Part shown: piece after piece, positions 34,443 through 40,642 of the stretch | Layout: every line of letters starts with the position of its first letter | How positions within the stretch are numbered: position 1 is the stretch's first letter | Assembly: GCF_034387475.1 (NCBI RefSeq) | Contig: NZ_JAXCIL010000002.1 | Coordinates: forward strand, 2,356,001-2,420,000 | DNA: 64,000 bases | From: Pseudomonas sp. Teo4 | GTDB lineage: Bacteria > Pseudomonadota > Gammaproteobacteria > Pseudomonadales > Pseudomonadaceae | Direction of reading: 5' to 3' | Notes under the pieces: generated by a model | Database searches by the model: none | What the model was told of the DNA's origin: nothing | Seen by the model: the letters and a program-made list of their open reading frames with translations, nothing else | Program-made: the position numbers and the translations under genes

Positions 34443-35081
34443 TCAATCGTCCGAAGTTTTCTGCTTGTACTCGCACAAGTCCTCGATCCGACAGCTGCCG
34501 CAGCGTGGCTTGCGCGCCTGACACACGTAGCGCCCATGCAGAATGAGCCAGTGATGGGCATCGAGCAGGTATTCCTTGGGCACGAACTTGAGCAGTTTCT
34601 TTTCCACCTCCAACACGGTTTTCCCAGGCGCAATACCGGTTCGGTTGCTGACCCTGAAGATATGTGTGTCGACGGCCATGGTGGGTTGGCGGAAAGCAGT
34701 ATTGAGCACCACGTTAGCTGTTTTGCGCCCAACGCCTGGTAGAGCCTCCAGAGCCTCCCGCGTTTGCGGGACCTGGCTGTCGTGGCGCTCGATCAGCAGG
34801 CGGCAAGCTTCGATGACGTTCTTGGCCTTGCTGTTGTAGAGCCCAATGGTCTTGATGTATTCGCTCAACCCTTCGACGCCCAGGGCGTAGATGGCTTCTG
34901 GTGTATTGGCCACCGGAAACAGCCGTGCAGTGGCCTTGTTGACGCCAACGTCGGTGGCCTGGGCCGAGAGGGTCACGGCAACCAGCAGCTCGAACGGGGT
35001 GGTGTAGGCCAGTTCAGTCTTTGGGTCCGGGTTGTCTTCGTGCAGCCTGCGGAAAATTTCCAGGCGTTTTGCGGCATTCAT
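34443..35081 (-). CDS. nth: Endonuclease III
   Basis: A 212-aa DNA glycosylase/AP lyase for oxidised pyrimidines. The helix-hairpin-helix has Lys120 in LPGVGRKTANV and the catalytic Asp138 in VDTH. The 4Fe-4S ligands are Cys187, Cys194, Cys197 and Cys203 (C-x6-C-x2-C-x5-C). It overlaps the end of rnfE by four bases (ATGA), the same linkage to rnf seen in many gammaproteobacteria. Confidence 0.95.
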   Translation of the reverse strand: MNAAKRLEIFRRLHEDNPDPKTELAYTTPFELLVAVTLSAQATDVGVNKATARLFPVANTPEAIYALGVEGLSEYIKTIGLYNSKAKNVIEACRLLIERHDSQVPQTREALEALPGVGRKTANVVLNTAFRQPTMAVDTHIFRVSNRTGIAPGKTVLEVEKKLLKFVPKEYLLDAHHWLILHGRYVCQARKPRCGSCRIEDLCEYKQKTSDD

Positions 35082-35605
35082 GGGGCGACGCTTTCCTTCG
35101 GCGTAGGGGGCGGAGTTGGGCGAAGGCGATTGTACAAGGCCAACAGCAGTCCGAGTATCAGCAGGGCGCCTGGAGCCAGGCTAGCCAAGTGCAGGTTCAA
35201 GCCTTCATTCAGCCATTGACGGCTGGCACCCATGAGCAGCAAGACCACTACCATGCCACTCAACTGCAAGAGCAGCTGGCGCGAGCGCCCGTTGGTTGGT
35301 AGCAGACCATCGATAGCCACGCACGCCAGGCATAAAAGCGCCGGATAAAAGCCCAGGATCAGGGCTATCGGCAATGTCCATGCGCGCAGGCCGAGCTGCA
35401 AGCAGCTGGCCAGGGCTGCGATAATTAGCAGGCTCGCCAGTTGAAGCGTCATCCCGGTGAGTTGCTGGCGCAGCGGTACCAGCAGCACCTGATGGGCGAG
35501 TGTCAGCCCCACCAGGCACAGGGCAATGCTGGCGCCTTGGGTCAAGGTTCGAGTAGCGCCAAGCACGGGTACCAGGCTGGCAGCCAGCCAGCAAAACCTA
35601 TTCAT
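35078..35605 (-). CDS. rnfE: Divergent RnfE/RsxE-like membrane subunit
   Basis: A 175-aa protein with about six hydrophobic segments. By position (after rnfG, before nth) and weak resemblance it is RnfE. Unlike standard RnfE, which has a conserved Cys in a GLCPLL-type loop that helps hold an intramembrane 2Fe-2S cluster, this one reads VPVLGATRTL there. Cysteines occur elsewhere (for example LLCLACVAIDG), but their placement differs. The start at 35605 overlaps rnfG by eight bases. It may be a degenerate or repurposed subunit. Confidence 0.7.
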   Translation of the reverse strand: MNRFCWLAASLVPVLGATRTLTQGASIALCLVGLTLAHQVLLVPLRQQLTGMTLQLASLLIIAALASCLQLGLRAWTLPIALILGFYPALLCLACVAIDGLLPTNGRSRQLLLQLSGMVVVLLLMGASRQWLNEGLNLHLASLAPGALLILGLLLALYNRLRPTPPPTPKESVAP

Positions 35606-36200
35606 GAACAGGGGCCTCCAGCAAGACCTGGCGATGTGCGTCAAAGTAGCTCAAGGCATCTTGCAATGCCTCGATCACTGCCCGCGAGGTAACCGTGGCA
35701 CCTGCGAGCTGGTCGAAATCCCCCTGATCGCGCTTGAGCGCCCAGTGGTCCTTGAGGTGTCGATTGGCAAATTGCCCCAGCCAGTTCAATTGCGGGTCGC
35801 CAATTCGCGCGCCCAGCCCAGGACTTTCCTGTTGCTCGAGCACCTGGCTGCCAATCAGGCGCCCGTTGGGGTCGATGGCGATGGTCAGCCTGATTGGCCC
35901 ACCGTAGCCCTGGGTCTCGCTCAGGAGGATGACGGCCGTCACTTGTGTGCCTAACATCGCCAGGTAGGCTGCCATGACACGACTGTGCGGCAGCTTGGCG
36001 TCGGGAACCGGTAGTGCGACGGCCAGCGGCCGGTTGTCGTAGCTGTTCGCCGGCAGGACCGCGAGCCATTGGCGCTCTTTCAGCGCTTGTTCGGCTTGAC
36101 TGATCGCAGGGTGAGTCCACTGGCGCCAGGCGAATGTGGCTGACAGGCTCAGTATGCCGACGGCTATCAGCCAACCAGCCGAGCGAATGAGGTGTTTCAC
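35598..36200 (-). CDS. rnfG: RnfG-like flavoprotein subunit
   Basis: A 200-aa protein with one N-terminal membrane helix (about 5-25) and a periplasmic FMN-binding domain. The flavinylation region is DQLAGATVTS (163-172), with Thr169 in the position that carries FMN in RnfG/NqrC; the usual Ser/Thr three residues before it is Ala. Also conserved is ETQGYGGPIRLTIAID, with the GxxG-type FMN-domain strand. It overlaps rnfD by four bases. Confidence 0.85.
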   Translation of the reverse strand: MKHLIRSAGWLIAVGILSLSATFAWRQWTHPAISQAEQALKERQWLAVLPANSYDNRPLAVALPVPDAKLPHSRVMAAYLAMLGTQVTAVILLSETQGYGGPIRLTIAIDPNGRLIGSQVLEQQESPGLGARIGDPQLNWLGQFANRHLKDHWALKRDQGDFDQLAGATVTSRAVIEALQDALSYFDAHRQVLLEAPVHE

Positions 36201-37165
36201 GGTGAGGTCTGCCTGCGCCGCAGGGCAAGGCGCTCAAGGCTGGGAACCGTGAGGTTCATCAGCAGAATGGCGAACGCAGTGCCATCCGGGTAGCTGCCCC
36301 AGGTGCGGATAAGGTAGATCAGTAGACCTGCACCAAAGCCGAACAGCAGTCTGGCAAGGTCGCTCCTGGGGCCAGACACCGGCTCGGTGGCAATGAAGAA
36401 CGCCGCCAGCATAGTCGAGCCGGAGAACAGGTGCAGCAAGGGTGAGCCATTGGAGTCTGAACCTGAGCCATTCCAGCCCAGCAGGCTGAACAGCGCAAGT
36501 CCCGCGAGCAACCCCGTCGGCGTCTGCCAGCTGAATACCTTGCGCTGCACAAGCAGAAGCCCCCCGATCAGAAACGCCAGATTGACCCATTCGCTACCGC
36601 GTCCGCCAATGGTGCCGAAACCTGGATGACGGGCAAACAGTTCTTCGATTGTCAGGCTGCGGTTGTGGCGCAGGCTGTCGAGTACGGTCGGTTGTGCCCA
36701 AGCATCGATTTGCTCGCCAGCGAACACCAACTGCACACTCTCCAGCATGCTGGGTGATTGCCCGGGCCAGTGGGTCATTTGCAATGGGAAACACAGCAGC
36801 ACCACGGCATAGCCGACCATTGCCGGGTTGAACAGGTTACGGCCCACTCCACCAAAGGCTTGTTTGCCAATGCCGATGGCGGCGCTGGCTGCGATCACCG
36901 GTATCCACCAAGGTGCATGGGTTGGCAGGGCCGCTGTCAGCAGCACGGCGGTCACCAGCGCACTGCCATCGGCCAGCGTCTCAGTGACGGGTTCACCGCG
37001 CAATGCCAGCAATAATGCTTCACAGCCCAGGGCCGCCCCACAGCACAGCAGCAAGCTCAACAACAGGCCCCAGCCATGCAGCCAGAACAGTGCCAGCAGA
37101 CCTGGGGCGCAAGCCAGCAGGACCAGGCCCATGGCCGCGCGCATTCGTGGGTCAGGAGGGGCCAT
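36197..37165 (-). CDS. rnfD: RnfD-like membrane flavoprotein subunit
   Basis: A 322-aa polytopic protein with about nine membrane helices. The family stretches [11 protein letters not shown] and [20 protein letters not shown] are well preserved. The candidate flavinylation Thr is in [10 protein letters not shown]. The start ATG at 37165 lies inside the end of rnfB (14-base overlap), so there is no room for rnfC between the two. In Rnf complexes this subunit carries covalent FMN and passes electrons across the membrane. Confidence 0.87.
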
Positions 37166-37985
37166 GTTCAGGCCCTGCCTGAAGTGCAGCGAGATGTTGC
37201 TGTGCCTGCTCAACGGCGCTTTGCAATGTTTGTAGTTGGACGCGTTGGGCGTCGTTGGGGGTTGCGCCAAATGCGCTACGGGCTTTGCTCAGCTGCGCCC
37301 GACTCATGGCGGCGGCAATCTTGGCCTGTTTGAGGGCGGCATCGTCGCTGGCGGCTTTCTGTGCCTTGACTCGCTCGATGGCAGCTTTGATCGGGTCGGC
37401 AGTGCTCTGCGCGCTGTTGGTGTTCGGCGTGTTGCGCGCCAGGCGCAGGGTTTCGCGGCGAGCCTCATCGCGCAGCAGGCGGGAAGCACGTTGTTCATGA
37501 CGAAGGCGGGCCTGATCGCGGCGTTTAGCGCGTTCTTGCAACTGCTCAGGTGTATGGGCAAGGCCACTGACAATAGGGATGACATTGCTCGGCAAGGGCA
37601 GCATGTCGATGCAGTCGACTGGGCAGGGCGCCAGGCACAGGTCGCAGCCGGTGCATTCACTGGCGATCACCGTGTGCATAAGTTTGGCAGCCCCGACGAT
37701 TGCGTCGACCGGGCATGCCTGGATGCACTTGGTGCAGCCGATGCATTCCGCTTCGCGAATGAACGCCACCTGAGGCGGTGCGCTGCCACGCTGCGGGTCG
37801 AGTGCGATCACTGGCACTTTCAGCAACGCCGACAAGGCCTGGATGGTTTCACTGCCGCCGGGTGGGCATTTGTTGATCGCTTCGCCCGCAGCCAGGCCTT
37901 CGGCGTAAGGCCGACAGCCTCCGTGGCCGCATTTACCGCATTGGGTTTGCGGTAACAGGGCGTCGATGCGTTGTATCAGACTCAT
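37152..37985 (-). CDS. rnfB: RnfB-like ferredoxin subunit with RnfC-like tail
   Basis: A 277-aa protein. The Fe-S domain has Cys16, Cys19, Cys24 and Cys40. Two 4Fe-4S ferredoxin motifs follow (Cys81/84/87/91 and Cys111/114/117/121). The N-terminal membrane helix of standard RnfB is missing: the protein starts straight at [14 protein letters not shown]. After residue 131 comes a charged, Ala/Lys/Gln-rich tail ([20 protein letters not shown]) that resembles the C-terminal tails of RnfC, hinting that an in-frame loss of rnfC fused its tail to RnfB. It overlaps rnfA by four bases. Confidence 0.85.
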
Positions 37986-38530
37986 TGTGTGAATAATCCG
38001 TTGAAGCCGGAGAACGCCATGGCCATGACCCCGGCACCAAGCAAGTCGATGGGCAAGCCACGCAGGCTGGCTGGAATGTCAGCCTGATCGGTGCGCTGGC
38101 GCAGGTCGTTGAACAGCACCAGGGCAAGCCAGAAGCCCAGGCCGGTAAGCAGCGCAGAGGTGGCTACCACCAGGCCGCCCTGGCCTTCGGCCGTTGCCTG
38201 TAGCAACAAGCCTAGCAGTGGAGCTCCCGCCGGTATCAGCGCAGGTAACGTGGTCGCGGGCCAATCAGGGCGCAGCCTCGCCAGTGCATACGGCACTCCC
38301 AGGCTCACAAGCGCGAGCCATGGGAGGAACAGGAACAGTTGCAGGTCCTGCAGTTGCCAAGGCGCCAGCAGCACGCGCGCAAGCAGCTGCCCGCCGCTCA
38401 CCCCCAGTAGAATCGACAATGCGCACGTCAAGCCGAGCACATGCACGTGCAACTGCGAGAAGGGCTGACGTTGCAGGGTCAGAGAACTGACCAGCGCGGC
38501 GCTGACCAGTATCAGAATGTAGTCGTTCAT
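37982..38530 (-). CDS. rnfA: Divergent RnfA-like membrane subunit
   Basis: A 182-aa protein with about six hydrophobic helices. Similarity to RnfA is clear at the ends ([41 protein letters not shown]), but the usual LGLCPFMG and TNC motifs, whose cysteines ligate a 2Fe-2S cluster between RnfA and RnfE, read LTLQRQPF and PAGAPLLG here. It is the first gene of the operon. The start at 38530 is preferred to one 13 codons upstream. Confidence 0.75.
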
Positions 38531-38602: not shown

Positions 38603-40642
38603 TTACTTGATGCGTTGGCCTGGCTTGGCACCGCTGTCGGGGCTGAGCAGGTAGATCTCTTCACCACCAGGGCCTGCCGCCATGACCATGCCCTCGGATA
38701 CGCCAAAGCGCATTTTGCGCGGCTTGAGGTTGGCAACCATCATGGTCAGGCGCCCTTCCAGTTTGGATGGGTCGGGGTACGCGGACTTGATGCCAGAGAA
38801 CACGTTGCGCTGCTCGTCACCGATGTCCAGGGTCAGGCGCAACAGTTTGTCAGCGCCTTCCACCGACTCGGCCTTGACGATCAGGGCCACGCGCAGGTCG
38901 ACGGCGGCGAAAGTGTCGAACTCGATCTCGGCCGACAGCGGGTCCTTGGTCAGTTCGCCATTGCCGGCTGGTGCCTTGGCTTCTGTGGCCAGCAGGTCTT
39001 CCTTGCTGGCTGCGACCATGGCTTCGACCTTGGCAGGCTCGATACGGCTCATCAGGGCCTTGAACGGGTTGAGCTTGTGGTTTTCCAGGCGCGACAGGTG
39101 GTCGTTCCAGGCCAGCGGCGCAACGTTGAGGAACGCCTCGGCATCGGCGGCCAGCACTGGCAGTACCGGCTTGAGGAAGATCACCAGTTGACGGAACAGG
39201 TTGATGCCCTGGGCGCAGATGGCCTGGACTTCATCCTGCTTGCCTTCCTGTTTGGCCAGCGACCATGGTGCCTTGTCGGCGATCCAGGCGTTGGCTCGGT
39301 CGGCCAGGGCCATGATTTCGCGCATGGCGCGGCCAAAGTCACGGCCTTCGTAGGCTTCGGCGATGGACGGAGCGGCAGCCAGGAATGCTTCGGTCAGTTC
39401 TGGTGCGGCGTCGCCAGCGACCATCACACCGTCATTGCCCTTGTGAATGAAGCCGGCGCAACGGCTGGCGATGTTGACCACCTTGCCGACCAGGTCGGAG
39501 TTGACCTTCTGCACGAAGTCTTCCAGGTTCAGGTCGAGGTCGTCGACGCCACGGCCCAGCTTGGAGGCGTAGTAGTAACGCAGGTATTCCGGCTGCAGGT
39601 GGTCCAGGTAGGTGCGCGCCTTGATGAAGGTGCCGCGCGATTTCGACATTTTCGCGCCGTTGACCGTCAGGTAGCCGTGCACGTTGATACCGGTTGGCTT
39701 GCGGAAGCCCGAACCTTCGAGCATGGCTGGCCAGAACAGGGCGTGGAAGTTGACGATGTCCTTGCCGATGAAGTGGTACAGCTCGGCCTTGGAGTCTTCT
39801 TTCCAGAACGCGTCGAAGTCCAGCTCAGGGCGGCGGGCGCACAGGTTCTTGAAGCTGGCCATGTAACCGATCGGTGCGTCCAGCCAGACATAGAAGTACT
39901 TGCCGGGCTCGCCAGGAATCTCGAAACCGAAGTACGGCGCATCGCGAGAGATATCCCACTCCTGCAGGCCAGAATCCAGCCATTCGGCGAGCTTGTTGGC
40001 GACCGCGTCCTGCAGGGTGCCGCTGCGGGTCCATTGCTGGAGCATGGCCTGGAAGTCAGGCAGCTTGAAGAAGAAGTGCTGGGAGTCGCGCAGCTCTGGG
40101 GTGGCGCCGGAGATGGCCGACTTGGGGTTCTTCAGCTCGGTGGGCGCGTAGGTGGCGCCGCACTTCTCGCAGTTGTCACCGTATTGGTCTTCGGCCGCGC
40201 ATTTGGGGCAGGTGCCCTTGATGAAACGGTCGGCCAGGAACATGCCCTTCTCAGGGTCGAAGTACTGGGTGACCGAACGGGTGGCAATGTGCCCGGCATC
40301 GCGCAGGCGGGTGTAGATCAGCCCGGACAGCTCGCGGTTTTCTTCGCAGTGGGTGGAGTGGAAGTTGTCGAAGTCCACCAGGAAGTCGGCGAAATCGCTG
40401 CTGTGCTCGGCCTGGACGTTGGCAATCAGCTGCTCTGGCGTGATGCCTTCCTTCTCGGCGCGCAGCATGATGGCCGAGCCGTGGGCGTCGTCGGCGCAGA
40501 CGTAGATGCACTGGTTGCCACGTAGTTTCTGGAAGCGAACCCACATGTCCGTCTGGATGTACTCAAGCATATGGCCAAGGTGGATGGATCCGTTGGCATA
40601 GGGCAGGGCACTGGTTACGAGAATCTGACGTGGCTCGGACAT
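38603..40642 (-). CDS. metG: Methionyl-tRNA synthetase
   Basis: A 679-aa class I synthetase: HLGH at 21-24, KMSKS in AKMSKSRGT, a CPKC-type zinc-binding insert ([19 protein letters not shown]) and a C-terminal tRNA-binding domain (about 575-679) of the EMAP/Trbp111 type used for dimerisation. Start [10 protein letters not shown] at 40642. The upstream gene, apbC, is divergent. Confidence 0.96.

Follow-up and report, generated by a model that had tools for sequence, protein, structure and literature searches.

An Rnf-like operon without RnfC in Pseudomonas: a putative flavin relay and a ferredoxin subunit with an RnfC-type tail

The closest described relatives of the locus considered here are the Rnf complexes (RnfABCDGE), among them those of Azotobacter vinelandii (8AHX), Clostridium tetanomorphum (7ZC6), and Acetobacterium woodii (9ERI). 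In the scheme given in a 2025 review, the electron path of Rnf links RnfB, the RnfA/RnfE cluster, the flavin mononucleotide (FMN) of RnfG, the FMN and then the riboflavin of RnfD, RnfC, and finally nicotinamide adenine dinucleotide (NAD) (PMC12174285). Also related are the NQR/RNF-like one-path systems, described as a reduced core that is proposed to pass electrons in one direction only between its cytosolic face and an FMN domain outside the cytosol (Meheust 2021, PMC8238504; PMC11334425). We examined an Rnf-like operon of Pseudomonas sp. Teo4 that occupies the site between metG and nth in a 64,000-nucleotide stretch of the 6.5-Mb genome (G000:C2:2356001-2420000, referred to as the window; assembly completeness 96.2%). 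Judged from the sequence, both ends of the Rnf electron path are cut in this operon and the flavin stretch is whole.

With moderate confidence, we favor the explanation that a complete Rnf at the metG-nth site came apart, in the ancestor of a large Pseudomonas clade, into an NADH- and RnfB-independent flavin relay made up of RnfA, RnfD, RnfG, and RnfE (the ADGE core) and a ferredoxin module of RnfB and RnfH linked to MiaB, the tRNA methylthiotransferase for 2-methylthio-N6-isopentenyladenosine (ms2i6A). The observations that carry this explanation are firm: the loss, throughout the lineage, of RnfC and the cluster ligands, an RnfC-type tail on RnfB, flavin sites that are kept together with the flavin transferase ApbE, a core that is independent of RnfB, and the co-occurrence of RnfB, RnfH, and MiaB.

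The window operon contains no rnfC, as an earlier note made from the sequence had claimed, and no RnfC exceeds the cut-off elsewhere in the assembly, where the top match to TIGR01945 scores 55.8 bits (cut-off 245.95). A partial RnfC-like match of this kind is found in all 199 Pseudomonas genomes of our genus sample, Rnf-bearing or not, and is probably NuoF of complex I. A hidden RnfC in the window genome was considered and rejected, with PF13375 giving one match and TIGR01945 nine, all below cut-off. The gene is also missing from relatives assembled as single contigs (e.g., G005 and G010). Across the genus sample, RnfD passes its cut-off in 136 genomes and RnfC in 30, and 106 genomes have RnfD without RnfC. 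Six of the 30 RnfC-bearing genomes combine an RnfC-less metG-nth locus with a second RnfC/RnfD locus elsewhere, and these six together with the 106 gave the 112 RnfC-less loci that were analyzed with their flanks (the window standing for G000). In a sample of 145 genomes from the order, RnfD exceeds the cut-off in 126 and RnfC in 117; RnfD without RnfC is common inside the genus and uncommon around it. Among the best 80 of 404 named loci, 79 at the metG-nth site are RnfC-less (77 labeled Pseudomonas and 2 Pantoea), and the sole Azotobacter locus is canonical. This locus, L250 of Azotobacter beijerinckii, was a candidate RnfC-less case and was rejected as such, since its genes proved to be ABCDGE. 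In a tree of 137 RnfD proteins (9 of 146 rows were short and left out), one branch with a support of 94 divides the canonical from the RnfC-less forms, consistent with the latter having arisen once. Elsewhere in the order, three genomes of one family (G206, G310, and G337) have RnfD-domain matches in open frames of 553-857 amino acids with no RnfC match listed, and these are perhaps another reduced, fused Rnf/Nqr-like system.

The second cut concerns the intramembrane [2Fe-2S] cluster, whose cysteines the earlier note had reported absent from RnfA and RnfE, a claim that stands for three of the four ligands but not for the second cysteine of RnfE. Both cluster cysteines are present in 15/15 RnfA proteins from full complexes of the genus, whereas in the RnfC-less loci the first occurs in 0/111 and the second in 0/111, most often replaced by aspartate at the first site (86/111) and by alanine at the second (92/111). 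In the window, rnfA (37982..38530, minus strand; 182 amino acids) encodes an RnfA-family membrane subunit with glutamine and alanine at the two sites. Canonical RnfE has both cysteines in 25/25 proteins, whereas the RnfC-less form has the first in 0/112 and the second in 108/112, and the 175-residue RnfE/NqrD-like membrane subunit of the window (35078..35605, minus strand) likewise has valine at the first site and keeps the second cysteine. Some other cysteine lies within 6 columns of the second RnfA site in 4/111 proteins and of the first RnfE site in 4/112, and alignments of the 111 RnfA and 112 RnfE proteins contain no alternative set of cysteines at the cluster site. The earlier note had named such a set, and a complete, co-expressed rnfC elsewhere in the genome, as refuting its reading. 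Since three of the four ligands are lost in every one of these RnfA and RnfE proteins, a four-cysteine [2Fe-2S] site is excluded. Two membrane cysteines of RnfE are almost fixed (108/112 and 102/112) despite the loss of the cluster.

Against TIGR01943 (cut-off 229), RnfA of the window scores 55 bits; RnfE reaches 27 bits against TIGR01948 (cut-off 213) and falls slightly below the Pfam cut-off. AlphaFold models had mean predicted local distance difference test scores of 76.5 for RnfA (39-sequence alignment) and 78.2 for RnfE (33-sequence alignment). In Foldseek searches, the RnfA model matches RnfA chains (E 3e-5, template modeling (TM) score 0.72), and the first eleven matches of the RnfE model are all NqrD/RnfE with probabilities of 0.99-1.00 and TM scores of 0.54-0.68, but with E values of 0.05-0.5. 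RnfA is thus recognizable as RnfA from both sequence and fold and not by chance, and the identity of RnfE is weaker.

In contrast to the two ends of the path, the flavin-bearing subunits are well preserved, as the earlier note had recognized for RnfD and RnfG. The window rnfD (36197..37165, minus strand) encodes a membrane flavoprotein that keeps the FMN-threonine site (DAWAQPT) and the GKxxxGGxxxNxFNPAM stretch, and rnfG (35598..36200, minus strand) encodes an FMN-binding subunit with an AGAT flavinylation motif; both products pass their NCBIfam cut-offs (338 and 172 bits, respectively). Over the 112 RnfC-less loci, the FMN-attachment residue is threonine in 111 and serine in 1 for RnfD, and threonine in 109 and serine in 3 for RnfG, and most positions of the GKxxxGGxxxNxFNPAM stretch are near-invariant. 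ApbE is found in 140/140 genomes with any RnfD match, including 106/106 RnfC-less genomes, and in 10/59 genomes without RnfD. A Pfam search of RnfD returned PF03116 only and no C-terminal NAD-binding domain (PF00175). An RnfD/NqrB-like membrane subunit and an FMN-binding subunit are both present. Separately, a PF26592 label on two homologues was not reproduced in a repeat Pfam search.

It is possible, though unlikely, that after the loss of rnfC and the cluster the operon became functionless and is a decaying relic carried along by its position between metG and nth. RnfA and RnfE are indeed the fastest genes of the operon, and loss of RnfD recurs, with 59/199 genomes lacking a match and each of the nine RnfB-only loci that the tree includes standing for a separate loss. 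In L176 (G006), an RnfE-like open reading frame (ORF) of 86 amino acids (22 bits) lies between a lone rnfB and nth and is perhaps a relic of lost membrane genes. Against decay, however, the FMN sites are kept in 112/112 loci and ApbE in 106/106 genomes, and the membrane ORFs are intact: RnfD, RnfG, and RnfE in 112/112 loci and RnfA in 110/111 at ≥90% of the model, the exceptions being a short rnfA in L096 and one absent from L153 owing to a contig end. Ratios of nonsynonymous to synonymous substitution (dN/dS), summed over close pairs selected by nth divergence, are 0.24 for RnfA, 0.11 for RnfD, 0.17 for RnfG, and 0.25 for RnfE in RnfB-bearing loci (102 pairs), with 0.03 for nth, and 0.26, 0.14, 0.15, and 0.25, respectively, in RnfB-less loci (20 pairs). 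In wider pairs selected by rnfD divergence, in which the canonical RnfB and RnfA rows (mixed fragments, n = 8) were unused, the median dN/dS is 0.25 for RnfD and 0.32 for RnfG. All four core genes are under relaxed yet purifying selection.

RnfB has been altered at both of its termini. The window rnfB (37152..37985, minus strand; 277 amino acids) encodes a ferredoxin subunit that keeps its putative iron-sulfur domain, the 4Fe-4S dicluster, and 13 cysteines, in line with the earlier note, which had also observed that the N-terminal membrane helix is missing. The median distance from the rnfA stop codon to the CxxC motif is 29 nucleotides in 94 RnfC-less loci compared with 128 nucleotides in the 15/15 full loci; fewer than 19 residues precede the motif in 91/94, and the remaining three have no hydrophobic stretch ahead of it, whereas 15/15 full loci have one (2 of 96 RnfB proteins without a recognizable motif were left out). 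At the other end, canonical RnfB of the genus stops 36-41 residues past the last ferredoxin CP motif and canonical RnfC has a long C-terminal tail rich in repeats, whereas RnfB of the RnfC-less loci bears a tail of 103-288 residues. A hidden Markov model (HMM) built from 15 canonical RnfC tails matched, at a threshold of 1e-5, 97/99 RnfB tails from RnfC-less loci, 11/11 tails from RnfB-only loci, and 0/15 canonical RnfB tails. None of the reversed tails, in which composition and helical periodicity are preserved, reached 1e-5, and the only ORFs of the loci that the HMM matched were those assigned to RnfB or RnfC. An end motif of RnfC is shared by 34/94 of the RnfB tails. In the window, the tail homologous to that of canonical RnfC spans the last 155 residues (37152..37619, minus strand; extent counted by hand). 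The RnfC-type tail is evidence that rnfC persists in part, fused to rnfB (rnfB::rnfC), and the simplest reading is a deletion that joined the 3' part of rnfC onto rnfB. In A. vinelandii, a long C-terminal helix of RnfC is described as touching RnfB and RnfH, with a function that is not understood (PMC12174285).

The ADGE core and RnfB separate from each other. While rnfB lies inside the operon in 96/112 loci, it is missing from the other 16, which read metG-rnfA-rnfD-rnfG-rnfE-nth, and the unchanged constraint on the four membrane genes in these 16 loci indicates that the core is independent of RnfB. Of the columns that are fixed in RnfB-bearing loci, only 1/33 in RnfA, 1/117 in RnfD, 1/33 in RnfG, and 0/8 in RnfE are changed in RnfB-less loci, and a docking surface for RnfB on the core was sought in this comparison and none was found. 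Conversely, RnfB is kept in 49/59 genomes that lack RnfD. The idea that RnfB still feeds the membrane subunits, with the RnfC tail docking its ferredoxin domain so that it replaces RnfC at RnfD and drives electrons toward the periplasm from ferredoxin or flavodoxin in the cytosol, gains some appeal from the fusion itself, from the usual position of rnfB within the operon, and from the review's account of the RnfC 4Fe-4S domain as the normal bridge to the RnfD riboflavin (PMC12174285). We nevertheless regard it as improbable, given the unchanged constraint without RnfB, the retention of RnfB without RnfD, and an RnfB distribution that tracks RnfH and MiaB. For the same reasons, the earlier note's reading of the operon as a ferredoxin-linked flavoprotein set without NADH is half right: its observations were correct, and a membrane flavoprotein set with neither NADH use through RnfC nor an RnfA/RnfE cluster is supported, but the link to ferredoxin is not.

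RnfB and RnfH agree in 198/199 genomes, both being present in 173 and neither in 25. The distribution of MiaB was examined because loss of Rnf A, C, D, G, or H is reported to abolish ms2i6A in Pseudomonas aeruginosa PA14 (PMC12300143). MiaB is found in 168/199 genomes, all 168 of which have RnfB, and it is missing from 26/26 RnfB-less genomes. Presence was called at E <1e-50 for RnfB and E <1e-100 for MiaB, such that a gene with a severe truncation would have been scored as missing, and the last 5 RnfH-less and 11 MiaB-less genomes were deduced as missing from the lists of positives, with totals that agree. On a species tree built from metG and nth (118 loci; 3/121 without both genes left out), MiaB was lost in two clades that make up 13.6% of the tree length, and RnfB was lost at least 3 to 5 times, always within those clades. 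It appears that loss of MiaB came first and that loss of RnfB and RnfH followed. The window genome itself has RnfB and RnfH and no MiaB at E <1e-100, and its RnfB may be on the way to being lost. RseC is present in 24/24 canonical genomes, in 1/112 RnfC-less genomes, and in 0/59 RnfD-less genomes, and the window genome has none.

Two further explanations fare worse. A working Rnf in which a NuoF-like NADH module or some other unlinked protein stands in for RnfC is very improbable: the partial NuoF-like matches in every genome could supply one, but they are there irrespective of Rnf, and the cluster that links RnfB to RnfG is missing too. Least credible, and almost negligible in our estimate, is reduction of SoxR without NADH input, which the earlier note had put forward and for which E. 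coli RsxABCDGE with RseC is a reported precedent (PMC12174285, PMC11729352), because SoxR, while above cut-off in 91/106 RnfC-less genomes including that of the window, is missing from the other 15, is found in 40/59 RnfD-less and only 5/24 canonical genomes and hence is not coupled to the distribution of Rnf in the genus, and because RseC and any cluster route to the cytosol are lost.

The layout of the locus agrees with the gene order and overlapping junctions given in the earlier note. On the minus strand the order is metG-rnfA-rnfB-rnfD-rnfG-rnfE-nth, and the successive junctions from rnfA to nth overlap by 4, 14, 4, 8, and 4 bases. Most homologues of RnfE are 174-175 amino acids long, and the start of rnfE was put at 35605 on that basis. 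The conserved downstream neighbor nth (34443..35081, minus strand) encodes endonuclease III and accounts for the last 4-base overlap. The conserved upstream neighbor (38603..40642, minus strand), which we take to be metG for methionyl-tRNA synthetase, marks the same site across the genus. By RnfD, the nearest named relative among the best 80 of 404 named loci is Pseudomonas taiwanensis DSM 21245 (89%). Outside Pseudomonas, a listing entry for a Legionella adelaidensis plasmid has an annotated RnfB directly adjoining metG, the same neighborhood.

How might the split have come about, and what would the parts do? The ancestor of the clade presumably had a full Rnf at the metG-nth site that was broken up, with rnfC lost except for its C-terminal tail, which became fused to RnfB, and with the RnfB helix, the RnfA/RnfE [2Fe-2S] ligands, and RseC lost as well. 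RnfA, RnfD, RnfG, and RnfE remained intact, and the FMN attachment sites and ApbE were kept. We infer that they form a four-subunit relay in which electrons move among the riboflavin of RnfD, the FMN of RnfD, and the FMN of RnfG, with RnfA and RnfE acting as a scaffold. Such a relay would run one way, from a membrane or cytosolic donor (a quinol or a flavin reductase) to a periplasmic acceptor of RnfG. From the pattern of co-loss, RnfB with its RnfC docking tail, together with RnfH, may be a soluble cytosolic ferredoxin that serves MiaB; once MiaB is lost, RnfB and RnfH would go later, and the window genome may represent the intermediate state.

Several points weigh against this explanation. 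RnfA and RnfE evolve fast, with wider-pair median dN/dS of 0.40 and 0.50, and half of the RnfE pairs exceed 0.5; RnfD has no match in 59/199 genomes, and the nine RnfB-only loci on the tree stand for nine separate losses of RnfADGE. The RnfC-type tail may be older than the clade, given that a family model for RnfB, PRK06991, extends over it as well. On the side of the ferredoxin, G065 has a weak RnfH match and no RnfB, and five genomes (that of the window, G045, G077, G104, and G110) lack MiaB and yet keep RnfB with all 13 cysteines. The last four are also four of the five loci in which RnfB falls below 90% of the model, owing to shorter tails, the fifth being L153, which is cut by a contig end. 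With only two losses of MiaB, the independent-pairs test has a median p of 0.5 and is powerless. The association of RseC is likewise imperfect: G123 (L140) is the sole RnfC-less genome with RseC, and the genomes of L059, L087, L089, L138, L144, and L145 carry RnfC and RnfD at a second locus but no RseC, from which it follows that RseC is not required by every Rnf.

A broader and more tentative proposal is that Rnf consists of three separable machines. One lineage would have dropped the NADH/cluster machine (RnfC, the RnfA/RnfE cluster, and RseC) and kept two others: a one-way, periplasm-facing relay of the ADGE core with ApbE, and a soluble ferredoxin, RnfB with the RnfC tail, that together with RnfH might be devoted to MiaB, either as its electron donor or as its partner in repair. 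In that type of Rnf, RseC would then assist RnfC or the RnfA/RnfE cluster and not the flavins. The natural splits seen here pair each helper with a part: ApbE with RnfD and RnfG, RnfH with RnfB, RseC with RnfC and the RnfA/RnfE cluster, and RnfB with MiaB. There is a practical consequence as well. Databases call these genes Rnf subunits, and about half of the sampled genomes (106/199) may therefore be credited with an impossible pump; one large survey is described as having scored Rnf by an RnfB near an FMN-binding gene (PMC8238504). In a literature search that covered open-access papers, with subscription papers and preprints mostly outside its scope, we found no paper on an RnfC-less Rnf in Pseudomonas, on an rnfB::rnfC fusion, or on co-loss of RnfB/RnfH and MiaB. 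We regard as new the RnfC tail on RnfB, the retained flavin core with ApbE, the independence of that core from RnfB, and the tracking of RnfH and MiaB by RnfB.

The Pseudomonas form shares features with several known systems and differs from each of them. Like the one-path systems, it is a reduced Rnf/Nqr core, but those are described as having two subunits, a fused NAD-binding domain, and no FMN-threonine in the membrane subunit and as occurring mainly in Actinobacteria and the candidate phyla radiation (CPR) (PMC8238504, PMC11334425), whereas the Pseudomonas form has four subunits, keeps the FMN-threonine, lacks an NAD domain, and is of Pseudomonas origin. With Na+-NQR it shares homologues of NqrB, NqrC, NqrD, and NqrE and a flavin chain to riboflavin, yet the operon has neither NqrF nor NqrA, the NqrD and NqrE homologues are without the cluster ligand set, and the quinone-site helices of NqrB are reportedly missing from RnfD (PMC12174285). 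Homologous D, G, and B subunits and ApbE connect it to E. coli RsxABCDGE-RseC (PMC11729352), from which it differs in having no RsxC, RseC, or cluster and no coupling to SoxR in the genus. With Rnf itself it has in common homologues of RnfA, RnfB, RnfD, RnfG, and RnfE in the canonical order, the FMN sites of RnfD and RnfG, and a location between metG and nth, where canonical complexes of the genus also lie. Unlike Rnf, the window system is without the NADH/FMN domain of RnfC, the RnfA/RnfE ligand set, and RseC, and its RnfB is soluble, carries an RnfC tail, and is dispensable. The survival of these two parts of Rnf separately from each other suggests two new jobs for old parts.

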